Below are positions 33,165 to 36,845 of a DNA stretch of 64,000 nt, piece by piece (positions within the stretch are counted from its first letter, which is position 1; each line of letters opens with the position of its first letter). The notes under the pieces are model-generated. The model worked only from the letters and a program-made list of their open reading frames with translations, did not search any database and was not told where the DNA came from. The stretch comes from Bacteroidota bacterium (GTDB taxonomy: Bacteria; Bacteroidota; Bacteroidia; Chitinophagales; BACL12): positions 62,001 through 126,000 of the forward strand of contig JAKQVC010000048.1 of the NCBI GenBank assembly GCA_029571985.1. Reading direction: 5' to 3'. The position numbers and the translations under genes were made by a program.

Positions 33165-34184
33165 TTACTGCGCTTCCTGCACGAAATAGGATTTCAAATC
33201 CATTACCTGCTGGTCGGTCATACGCTCGGCTGTATAATGCGGCATGTAAGGTTCATGGCCGGGATAGGAATAGAATCCGTGACGAACTGCTTTAAATAAC
33301 CACCAATAATCTTTTTCGAAATCGCGGTTAAATTTTTTGAAGGTGAAACCGGAATCATCAAACACATTGTCAGAACAACCGTATGCCTTGTGACAATGCT
33401 GACAGCTCAAATTGTAAATTGCCTTACCTCTTGCAGGATCGCCAACCGGCAGGCTATTCCCCTTTTCGTAAGGTGGCTCAACAAAAGTGGCCGGCGATTT
33501 TAAAGCATATTTTCCCCGTATACGTGTAATCCAATCGGCATACTTTTCCGGATGTGCGACATCTGCATTTAACTGCGCAATTTCAGCATCTGTTAAAATA
33601 TCACTGAGTTTATAACTGATAGAAATATAATAGGCCAGAATTACATCTTCCTCCCATTGCAACAGCGGCCGGCCTTTCGAACACTCCATGGCACATAATT
33701 GAATGGCTTCGCGAATATTTTCCTTCGCCGGTTTCACGAGGTCGCCATACTTCTTATAATAATCATCATTATACCAGGTTTCTCTATTCGTGGCACCGTA
33801 AAAAGTTGTTCCCTGCAAAAAGGGTAAATTCTTTTCAATGGCATACGTTAATCGCGCTTCAGGATCCATGTTTGAGAGTACAGGGTCTTCAATCACAGAG
33901 TTGTGGCAATTTGTACATACATAATACACACTCACATATTTTGATCGTCCGCCACTCGGGTCATCGGTATAACCATTTTCCACGATTTCCTTACCTCTTC
34001 TGATATCCTCTTCCGTATAATTCGCCGGAAACCAGGCAGGTTTCGGGAAACCCATGTCATATAATACGTCATGTACATAACTATTTTTGGTATAGGCCGA
34101 ATCCTGCTCTGACGGACTTAACTGCATAAAAGACAGGAAAATCAGGCCACTGCCTGTGAATAGTATCAAAAGAAGCTTTTTCAT
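33165..34184 (-). CDS. Dihaem c-type cytochrome
   Basis: A 339-residue exported protein with an N-terminal hydrophobic signal or anchor (MKKLLLILFTGSGLIFLSFM). Two CxxCH haem-binding sites are visible: CTNCH in YYVCTNCHNSVIED near residue 94 and CQHCH in YNLSCQHCHKAYG near residue 255. The methionine ligands could be YMPHYTAERMT and similar. The layout (RRGKEIVENGY, then PARGKAIYNLSCQHCH) is that of tandem class I cytochrome c domains. It probably shuttles or receives electrons in the periplasm, but no oxidase or dehydrogenase genes are adjacent. It is divergent from the small-RNA cluster. Confidence 0.9.
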   Translation of the reverse strand: MKKLLLILFTGSGLIFLSFMQLSPSEQDSAYTKNSYVHDVLYDMGFPKPAWFPANYTEEDIRRGKEIVENGYTDDPSGGRSKYVSVYYVCTNCHNSVIEDPVLSNMDPEARLTYAIEKNLPFLQGTTFYGATNRETWYNDDYYKKYGDLVKPAKENIREAIQLCAMECSKGRPLLQWEEDVILAYYISISYKLSDILTDAEIAQLNADVAHPEKYADWITRIRGKYALKSPATFVEPPYEKGNSLPVGDPARGKAIYNLSCQHCHKAYGCSDNVFDDSGFTFKKFNRDFEKDYWWLFKAVRHGFYSYPGHEPYMPHYTAERMTDQQVMDLKSYFVQEAQ

Positions 34185-34292
34185 ATTTGTCCGAAAATTA
34201 GCATTTATAAAATTACAATCCGGGTCACAAATCGTGTAAGACAGATAACAACCAAATCCGAAAAAAATTTGGAAATCCCGTATGCCCTTACC

Positions 34293-34300
34293 TATATTTG
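34293..34300 (+). promoter_or_regulatory. TAnnTTTG promoter element of sRNA copy 1
   Basis: TATATTTG matches the primary-sigma -7 consensus; a TTTG lies 21 bases upstream (34268-34271). A transcript would start near 34305 and run to the terminator at 34386-34427. Confidence 0.5.
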
Positions 34301-34305
34301 CCTCA

Positions 34306-34427
34306 TCAACCGTAAAGGTTCTTAAAAACGTTCATGATTTCCACGCTGGTGGGTCTATCATAAAGATTTGTGTTTTCATGGGGATAGCAGAGGAATCGGA
34401 GTTCTTCCGTGCACTCTGCTTTTTTTT
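34306..34427 (+). ncRNA. Candidate small RNA, copy 1 (long leader, primary-sigma promoter)
   Basis: Predicted RNA of about 120 bases from the TATATTTG element to a terminator. It contains the family core TTTTCATGGGGATAGCAG at 34373-34390, identical to copies 2 and 3. The leader can form AACC/GGTT and CCAC/GTGG hairpins. The terminator stem AGCAGAG (34386-34392) / CTCTGCT (34414-34420) differs in sequence from the other copies but begins at the same place in the core. At the position where copies 2 and 3 have a sigma-54 promoter there is only a degenerate CCACGCTGGTGGG. The 5' end is a prediction. Confidence 0.6.
34386..34427 (+). terminator. Terminator of sRNA copy 1
   Basis: AGCAGAG / CTCTGCT, with a possible inner GGAA/TTCC stem, then eight T. 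Confidence 0.85.
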
Positions 34428-34447
34428 GCCTGTTCAGGGCTGAAGCA

Positions 34448-34463
34448 TGTGATTGATGTCACA
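34448..34463. promoter_or_regulatory. TGTGA-N6-TCACA dyad upstream of sigma-54 promoter
   Basis: A perfect CRP/FNR-type palindrome, TGTGA-TTGATG-TCACA. Its centre is about 83 bases before the predicted start of sRNA copy 2, a distance typical for enhancer-binding-protein sites at sigma-54 promoters. It could bind either a CRP-family regulator or the bacterial enhancer-binding protein itself. Confidence 0.5.
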
Positions 34464-34513
34464 ATTCCTTGCAATTAATTCAATATTTTCGACTTTTTCT
34501 GCAAAATAGTGAT

Positions 34514-34529
34514 TGGCACGCAATTTGCT
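34514..34529 (+). promoter_or_regulatory. Sigma-54 promoter of sRNA copy 2
   Basis: TGGCAC-GCAAT-TTGCT, with ten bases between the GG and GC dinucleotides, is a full match to the -24/-12 consensus. The start would be near 34539. Confidence 0.85.
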
Positions 34530-34538
34530 ATACTAGTA

Positions 34539-34599
34539 TTGTGTGTGTTTTCATGGGGATAGCAGGATAGGCCACAGCGGTTTATCCTGCTTTTTTTTT
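34539..34599 (+). ncRNA. Candidate small RNA, copy 2 (sigma-54 dependent)
   Basis: Predicted RNA of about 60 bases from the sigma-54 start to the T-run. The family core TTTTCATGGGGATAGCAG is at 34548-34565. Its last five bases open a 13-bp hairpin, 34561-34573 with 34579-34591 (two G-U pairs), around the loop ACAGC, followed by nine T. The AUG in the core starts a five-codon ORF (MGIAG). I do not recognise the RNA family. Sequence and promoter support are strong; there is no expression evidence. Confidence 0.78.
34561..34599 (+). terminator. Terminator hairpin of sRNA copy 2
   Basis: AGCAGGATAGGCC / GGTTTATCCTGCT, loop ACAGC, then nine T. Confidence 0.93.
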
Positions 34600-34681
34600 A
34601 TAGTTGCCCCCTTCTGCAGCAACTGCCCTGTATAGCCCTTCTGTCTTTACTTTCCGCTACAGTTTCCATCTAAATTGAAGT

Positions 34682-34697
34682 TGGCACGCAACTTGCC
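34682..34697 (+). promoter_or_regulatory. Sigma-54 promoter of sRNA copy 3
   Basis: TGGCAC-GCAAC-TTGCC with the same ten-base GG-GC spacing. The distance from GC to the TTTTCATGGGG core is the same as in copy 2 (20 bases). Confidence 0.85.
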
Positions 34698-34706
34698 TTA
34701 TTATAT

Positions 34707-34767
34707 ACGTGTGTGTTTTCATGGGGATAGCAGGGTAAGCCACAGCGGTTTATCCTGCTTTTTTTTT
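34707..34767 (+). ncRNA. Candidate small RNA, copy 3 (sigma-54 dependent)
   Basis: Predicted RNA of about 60 bases, core at 34716-34733. The hairpin 34729-34741 with 34747-34759 has the same right arm and ACAGC loop as copy 2. The left arm differs at two positions (A to G, G to A), both of which keep a pair. The five-codon ORF MGIAG is also kept, since GGA becomes GGG and TAG becomes TAA. The duplication is therefore old enough to have diverged outside the core but not within it. Confidence 0.78.
34729..34767 (+). terminator. Terminator hairpin of sRNA copy 3
   Basis: AGCAGGGTAAGCC / GGTTTATCCTGCT, loop ACAGC, then nine T. Confidence 0.93.
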
Positions 34768-35292: not shown

Positions 35293-35300
35293 TATCTTTG
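35293..35300 (+). promoter_or_regulatory. TAnnTTTG element 3 bases before the guaA ATG
   Basis: TATCTTTG followed by CGC and ATG at 35304. An exact consensus match implying a leaderless mRNA. Confidence 0.65.
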
Positions 35301-35303
35301 CGC

Positions 35304-36845
35304 ATGACTGAAAAGATTCTGATCCTTGACTTTGGATCACAGTATACACAGCTGATAGCCAGGAGAATCAGGGAATTACATGTTTACAGCGAAATTGTTC
35401 CCTGCACCAAGATTCCGGAAATTACAGATGACATTAAAGGTATCATCCTCTCTGGCAGTCCGTTTTCAGTTTCTGCTGCCGATCGGCCTGCATTCCAGAT
35501 AGAACAGATATTAAATAAAAAACCTATCCTGGGCGTATGTTATGGCGCCCAATTTATAGCACAGCATTTTGGCGGTGTGGTTCAGCCTTCCTCCAAACGT
35601 GAATATGGTCGCGCCTTTCTGCATATTCAGGACCGCGATTGTCCGCTATTTTATGGTGTTGACGACGAAAGTCAGGTGTGGATGAGTCACAGCGATACCG
35701 TTATGCAGGTGCCAAAAGGATTTCATGTTACAGCCAAAACCGCCAGCATTGATGTTGCAGCCTATGCTGCCGACAATGGCACATTCCAATATCCTTTGTA
35801 TTGCATTCAGTTTCACCCGGAGGTGACACATAGCACGGAAGGCAAAAAAATGCTGGAGAATTTTGTGGTTGGTGTGTGTGGATGCACTCAAAGCTGGACG
35901 CCGGAATCCTTTGTTGAAGAAACTGTGGCGCATATCCAAAAAACGGTTGGCGACGACCAGGTGGTTTTAGGTTTATCCGGTGGTGTTGATTCGAGTGTTG
36001 CTGCCATCTTATTAAACAAGGCAATTGGTCAGCGATTAATTTCCATTTTTGTAAACAATGGCCTTTTGCGTAAGGATGAATTTCATACCGTACTGCATAG
36101 TTACCATGATATGGGCCTGAACGTTGTGGGTGTTGATGCGGAAGATGAATTTCTGCAAGCCCTGCACGGCGTGAGTGATCCGGAGCAAAAACGAAAAATA
36201 ATCGGCAAGGTATTTATTGATGTATTTGAACGTGAGGCCAAAAAACTGCCAAATGTAAAATGGCTGGCACAGGGCACGATATACCCGGATGTGATTGAAT
36301 CCGTTTCTGTTCATGGTCCTTCAGCAACCATTAAATCGCATCACAATGTTGGCGGATTGCCCGATAAGCTCAATTTAAAGGTAATTGAACCCTTGCGCTT
36401 TCTATTTAAAGATGAAGTGCGTTTGGTGGGCGAAACCTTAAAACTGAAACATGAAATTCTGCATCGCCATCCTTTCCCGGGACCAGGATTAGCCATTCGG
36501 ATAATTGATGCCATCACCAAAGAACGCGTGCGCATTGTGCAGGAAGCAGATGCTATTTTTATTCATCATCTCAAACAAAGCGGCTGGTATGATCAGGTAT
36601 GGCAAGCCGGCGCTATTTTATTACCGGTGCAAACTGTTGGCGTGATGGGCGACGAGCGTACGTATGAAAATGTAGTTGCGTTGCGTTGTGTTAATTCAAC
36701 AGATGGAATGACTGCAGACTGGTCGCATTTACCACATGGATTATTGGCACAGATTTCGTCTGATATCATCAATCATGTTAAAGGTATAAACCGGGTAGTA
36801 TACGATATCAGTTCAAAACCACCTGCAACCATTGAGTGGGAATAA
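35304..36845 (+). CDS. guaA: GMP synthase (glutamine-hydrolysing)
   Basis: A 513-residue enzyme converting XMP to GMP. The class I glutamine amidotransferase domain holds [20 protein letters not shown], the nucleophile in [16 protein letters not shown] and the HPEVTHS histidine/glutamate. The ATP-pyrophosphatase PP-loop is [16 protein letters not shown] near residue 225. The C-terminal dimerisation domain includes [14 protein letters not shown] and ends [14 protein letters not shown], the standard GuaA terminus. ATG 35304 is preferred to the TTG at 35298, which lies inside the promoter element. The downstream lipoprotein gene overlaps its 3' end. Confidence 0.98.

Follow-up and report, generated by a model that had tools for sequence, protein, structure and literature searches.

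Small RNAs (sRNAs) of the CrcZ and NrsZ kind are switched by an enhancer-binding protein acting with sigma-54, NrsZ being built of repeats, whilst the Qrr RNAs are about 100 nt in length. In Vibrio, the Qrr sRNAs are encoded as several near-identical copies, and every copy has a separate sigma-54 promoter and terminator; their seed is invariant, they depend on Hfq, and LuxO drives them (PMC11443567, PMC8043402). CrcZ and NrsZ are sigma-54-dependent sRNAs of Pseudomonas (PMC8395346, PMC9308961), and in Enterobacteriaceae a sigma-54-dependent sRNA is released from the 3' UTR of the glutamine synthetase mRNA (PMC9731577).

Sigma-54-controlled sRNAs are known mainly from Proteobacteria and the multicopy sRNAs of Bacteroidota mainly from Bacteroides; among open-licence papers we found no description of sigma-54 sRNAs in Bacteroidota. 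Bacteroides thetaiotaomicron encodes many paralogous FopS sRNAs of 65-70 nt that share one conserved 5' seed, which pairs with the translation initiation region of susC-type mRNAs (PMC11697453). One member derives from an mRNA 3' end, and the genes are scattered and have canonical sigma-ABfr promoters (PMC11697453). Rfp18 of Flavobacterium, also conserved in Bacteroidota, is an sRNA predicted to pair with secreted-protein mRNAs; unlike the family described below, it is a single gene whose RNA has several stem-loops, with the pairing region in the third, and the excerpts of that report mention no sigma-54 promoter (PMC9723704).

The locus considered here lies in a 64,000-nt stretch of Bacteroidota DNA (the window, to which all coordinates refer; features are on the plus strand unless stated). 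Three units stand in tandem, each with the core TTTTCATGGGGATAGCAG, which comprises the seed and the start of the terminator stem, at 34373-34390 (copy 1), 34548-34565 (copy 2) and 34716-34733 (copy 3). These are the only three exact sites of the core in the 4.0-Mb assembly. Directly 3' of each core is a GC-rich hairpin followed by 8-9 T, forming intrinsic terminators at 34386-34427 in copy 1 (stem 34386-34420 plus T run), 34561-34599 in copy 2 (13-bp stem 34561-34591 around ACAGC, then T9) and 34729-34767 in copy 3 (13-bp stem 34729-34759, then T9). Compared with shuffled sequences, the folding z-scores are -2.15, -4.0 and -4.6, respectively, and the differences between copies 2 and 3 are A-U/G-U exchanges that preserve pairing. 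A shared peptide was considered and rejected: read from the core ATG, copies 2 and 3 give the five codons M-G-I-A-G and then a stop, so that no common peptide is encoded, and the other copies read differently. Between copies 1 and 2, at 34449-34464, is a perfect CRP/FNR-like palindrome, TGTGATTGATGTCACA (TGTGA-N6-TCACA), which did not turn up in the relatives.

Copies 2 and 3 are preceded by the sigma-54 promoters TGGCACGCAATTTGC (34514-34528) and TGGCACGCAACTTGC (34682-34696), both TGGCAC-N5-TTGC with a GG-to-GC spacing of 10 nt and a distance of 19 nt from the -12 C to the core. The original prediction had read from these letters three units whose common 18-nt core runs into an intrinsic terminator, 13-bp hairpins around ACAGC with pairing-compatible differences in copies 2 and 3, and consensus sigma-54 promoters with ten-base spacing before those two copies, and every one of these features was recovered. 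TGGCAY-N5-TTGC has 34 sites on both strands of the whole genome (7 for the reversed control), and because the pattern is so rare, two correctly spaced sites are not a matter of chance. Across the ten array units known from four genomes (see below), TGGCA[C/T]-N5-TTGC stands ahead of seven, with 19-20 nt from the -12 C to the core; sigma-54-type promoters are thus the majority among array units, unlike the sigma-ABfr promoters in the style of FopS. Copy 1 has a promoter of the sigma-ABfr type at 34268-34300 (TTTG at 34268-34271, N21, TATATTTG at 34293-34300), a layout we take to be that of the Bacteroidota housekeeping promoter. Among array units it is found only at copy 1 of the source genome (G000) and of a sister genome of the same genus (G001, L038), at 72 and 74 nt from the core, respectively; copy 1 of a third genome, G003, has no clear promoter. 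Sigma-54 control of most array copies is very likely.

The fixed sigma-54 spacing predicts an RNA of about 60 nt with its 5' end at U/CGUGUGUGUUUUCAUGGGGAUAGCAG (also written U/CGUGUGUGUUUUC). For copy 2, placing +1 12 nt past the -12 C gives a predicted 60-nt RNA at 34540-34599 that begins UGUGUGUGUUUUCAUGGGGAUAGCAG, and for copy 3 the predicted 60-nt RNA spans 34708-34767. A covariance model (R1) built from the ten array units gives 82 bits on copies 2 and 3, both of which went into its building. The copy 1 RNA, with its start placed from the -7 element, is predicted to be about 122 nt (34306-34427), with a poorly conserved 5' leader followed by seed and terminator.

That the observation is real is decided by conservation in other genera. 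The core is present in the nearest genomes of the same GTDB family, G001, G002 and G003, so that the sRNA family is found in four genomes of three genera, four of the six genomes of that one Chitinophagales family, and is absent from G004 and G005, which belong to a fourth genus. Core-bearing metagenome-assembled records in Chitinophagales are JACMJP010000273 (ES-bin-175), JAIBBA010000067, JAIBBA010000187 (SSF59) and DDYY01000025 (UBA3022). A 22-nt block, TGTGTTTTCATGGGGATAGCAG, is identical in all ten array units, and the seven sigma-54 units lengthen it to GTGTGTGTTTTCATGGGGATAGCAG; the adjoining guaA DNA, by contrast, is just 69-77% identical between genomes.

Outside this GTDB family, neither the roughly 400 genomes sampled from the order nor a class sample of 395 genomes yielded the sRNA family. 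The exact 16-mer does not occur in the rest of 299 order genomes, save at one chance site, and the one-mismatch core sites outside the family in the class sample all lie in open frames, with none before a terminator. Wider spread in the order was rejected: R1 matches outside the family reach 36 bits and are mostly to the terminator half only, by chance or in other contexts. Exact matches in other phyla and viral contigs were likewise set aside as single sites with no following terminator. Against Rfam at the gathering score, tRNA is the sole family matched in the whole window, and the region 34200-34900 matches no bacterial sRNA family up to an E value of 5. The suggestion of an undescribed regulatory RNA family of Bacteroidota therefore stands as to an undescribed, conserved, multicopy family with sigma-54 promoters, given homologues with that promoter in three genera, RpoN and enhancer-binding proteins in the genomes, and the lack of an Rfam match; its breadth shrinks from the phylum to one GTDB family. 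The family of predicted multicopy small RNAs is real, conserved and undescribed.

New here is that the transcribed block UGUGUUUUCAUGGGGAU recurs beyond the array, joined at every place to another terminator. When R1 was run on 398 genomes of the order, further full-length members, with scores of 38-46 bits, appeared only in this GTDB family, and these carry the same TGTGTTTTCATGGGGAT ahead of a different hairpin. Members lie at the 3' ends of rpoD in G000, G001 and G002 (L132, L134 and L137), at 35, 34 and 36 nt past the stop, and at ABC-exporter 3' ends in two genomes (L133 and L136), at 78 and 107 nt past the stop. G002 has two intergenic members with TATATTTG just upstream, and G001 one weaker member with two mismatches. 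The exact 17-mer occurs 5, 5, 5, 2, 0 and 0 times in G000 to G005, with two of the members in the source genome outside the array. At L135:1346-1409 is a weaker member, where TTTGTTTTCATGGAGAT stands before a hairpin, 44 nt past the stop of a gene for a protein that looks T9SS-sorted. The transcribed block stays the same although its promoters, host genes and terminator sequences differ, which argues that it acts as RNA. What is conserved is a seed joined to a terminator at the 3' end of an RNA, with sigma-54 promoters, sigma-A promoters and mRNA 3' ends as its predicted sources, and the member at the rpoD 3' end may be an sRNA derived from the 3' UTR of the mRNA for the main sigma factor.

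Our preferred reading, to which we give a probability of roughly 0.6, is that the copies encode short regulatory RNAs that act in trans as a multicopy family and would work like Qrr or FopS. In each RNA the invariant single-stranded seed, which the sigma-54 copies extend at the 5' end to GUGUGUG, would lead straight into an intrinsic terminator with a variable stem. Activation of sigma-54 RNA polymerase by an enhancer-binding protein would switch on copies 2 and 3, whose RNAs would measure about 60 nt; copy 1 would yield a longer RNA from a housekeeping (sigma-ABfr-type) promoter, and further copies would terminate the rpoD and ABC-exporter mRNAs. We propose that, with the same seed offered to the same targets by all copies, several signals would feed one regulon. 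More tentatively, alternative and housekeeping sigma activity may meet in a single post-transcriptional regulon of Hfq-less Bacteroidota, where the rpoD mRNA would itself release or carry a member; we would rate this possibility at less than even.

Trans base pairing is likely, and its most likely mode would be pairing near mRNA start codons that blocks translation. Within the seed, CAU has UUUU and GGGG on its two sides, which would allow pairing with CCCC-AUG-AAAA around start codons, CAU with AUG and UUUU with the AAAA of ATGAAAA starts. At 918 called gene starts (1.25 Mb, 31% of the genome), the real seed does no better than shuffled seeds, whether by contiguous run or by duplex energy. 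One gene on the same contig, encoding a secreted protein of 731 aa that has a T9SS sorting tail, starts with CATGAAAACACACAC and is thus perfectly complementary to the sigma-54-type seed over 15 nt; the protein begins MKTHT, with its gene start at about 35026 of contig C4 of G000. Shuffled seeds reach a 15-nt match in 2 of 1500 cases, or in 37 of 1500 if TTTTCAT is kept. Sites for the 15-mer with two mismatches at true starts in other genomes are few and concern different genes, none of the candidate targets recurred in a second genome, and start-codon matches in G000 to G003 are hardly commoner than in G004 and G005, which are without the exact seed. Antisense matches of the 17-mer with three mismatches and of the 15-mer with two, taken across the six genomes, were rejected as targets, giving one perfect start-codon site and nothing general. 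L282:5701-19382 holds a tandem run of genes whose products are large secreted repeat proteins sharing C-terminal parts, and one of these genes is the candidate target. Start-codon pairing is accordingly a working hypothesis with one candidate target. For the family as a whole we infer transcription, sigma-54 dependence, trans action and start-region pairing.

In another reading, the block is the site for an RNA-binding or 3'-end-protecting protein and the RNAs are protein sponges or a module for mRNA 3'-end stabilisation or processing. Hfq gave no hit over the cut-off in the six genomes (the best, in G003, had an E value of 0.0076 and fell below it), and a narrow motif scan turned up no RRM-like protein in the 31% of the genome that it covered, a result that carries no weight either way. 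The Hfq result and the lack of genome-wide seed enrichment at starts are points in favour of a protein site, as is the position of the block, always directly before a terminator, including in the 3' UTRs of rpoD and the ABC exporter; moreover, in Bacteroides the RRM protein RbpB binds the conserved part of FopS RNAs (PMC11697453). However, a protein that binds single-stranded RNA would hardly need a site as long as the 17 invariant nt (25 in the sigma-54 units), free-standing sigma-54-driven units are ill suited to a mere mRNA-stability element, and base pairing and protein binding can coexist, as for FopS. We consider a protein site unlikely as the whole explanation.

The conservation of the block relative to its stem also bears on whether the copies are simply a duplicated terminator cassette of common ancestry with no regulatory RNA function. 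Every copy does end in a good intrinsic terminator, and the rpoD and exporter copies act as the terminators of those genes. Stem pairing persists through sequence changes, with 8 cells changed on both sides and a covariation score equalled in 4 of 500 shuffles, in a comparison of few sequences, all from draft genomes; such covariation is expected of any kept terminator and alone proves no more. What a cassette does not explain is that the stem varies whilst the unpaired upstream block is invariant, for termination requires no conserved upstream 17-mer, or that dedicated sigma-54 promoters stand at fixed spacing in three genera. A cassette of this kind is very improbable.

Trans-acting RNAs under sigma-54 would need an activator. 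Each of the six genomes has one RpoN and several enhancer-binding proteins, four of the latter with the full domain in the source genome. The native ones, on contigs C264, C119 and C2, are two NtrC-type response regulators, neither linked to the array, and one protein encoded beside miaB and an lptE-like gene. The fourth (L356) is encoded on a 13-kb contig of that genome (C49) among ccoG-, pqqC-, trxC- and ZIP-like genes; by eye these neighbours look proteobacterial, and the contig may be a binning contaminant. Upstream of the sigma-54 promoters no common motif or palindrome for an activator was found. Tandem sigma-54 sRNA copies with one seed, in a genome encoding NtrC-type response regulators, would suit a true Qrr-type quorum circuit, with a LuxO-like response regulator driving copies that repress a master regulator. 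Yet no Hfq passes the cut-off, Rfam gives no match, no quorum gene adjoins the array, and the sigma-A and 3'-UTR members are without a Qrr counterpart, which leaves such a circuit with little chance of being correct.

Beyond the array, the next gene downstream is guaA (GMP synthase, 35298-36845), and on the other side lies a divergent c-type cytochrome gene (33165-34184, minus strand), which also flanks the array in G003. The array is found upstream of guaA in G000, G001, G002 and G003, wherever the neighbourhood is readable, and in G001 the copy-1 type is on a separate contig downstream of fusA, indicating that copy 1 is a unit of its own. The synteny with guaA might suggest a cis-acting leader or attenuator of that gene, but each unit has its own terminator and the sigma-54 units separate promoters, guaA starts about 530 nt past the last terminator here, and members are found far from it, including the G001 copy by fusA, making a leader the least credible explanation of all.

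Regulatory RNAs acting in trans, if the preferred reading is right, would join sigma-54 control with the multicopy sRNAs of Bacteroidota and would place the same seed on free-standing sRNAs and at the 3' end of the rpoD mRNA. The family would also show how Hfq-less Bacteroidota build sRNA networks, and would offer a well-defined 60-nt RNA whose activator and seed can be tested.

How, then, does the family compare with known systems? To our knowledge, no proteobacterial sigma-54 sRNA mixes sigma-54, sigma-A and 3'-UTR members under one seed, and the proteobacterial sigma-54 sRNAs are unrelated to the present family in sequence and phylum. Features general to sigma-54 sRNAs were nonetheless found here, namely consensus -24/-12 elements, a conserved distance to the predicted RNA start, and RpoN and enhancer-binding proteins in the genome. 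The label Qrr-like, given to the array at the outset, holds for its layout, with tandem copies and, in seven of the ten array units, a sigma-54 promoter at fixed spacing, but not for an Rfam match or for Hfq: unlike Qrr, the family has RNAs with a predicted length of about 60 nt, sigma-A and 3'-UTR members, and genomes in which Hfq gives no hit over the cut-off. Those 3'-UTR and sigma-ABfr-type members resemble FopS more than Qrr. FopS shares with this family its phylum, paralogous RNAs of about 60-70 nt (predicted lengths here) with a common 5' seed, a 3'-end-derived member and a lineage without Hfq; the differences are that most array copies here are tandem and have sigma-54 promoters. The FopS sequence probably differs as well; no terminator-associated core site with one mismatch or fewer was found elsewhere in the class sample. 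By this comparison, FopS would be the nearest known system in working, and the family probably represents undescribed gene-regulating small RNAs like the multicopy families of Vibrio and Bacteroides.
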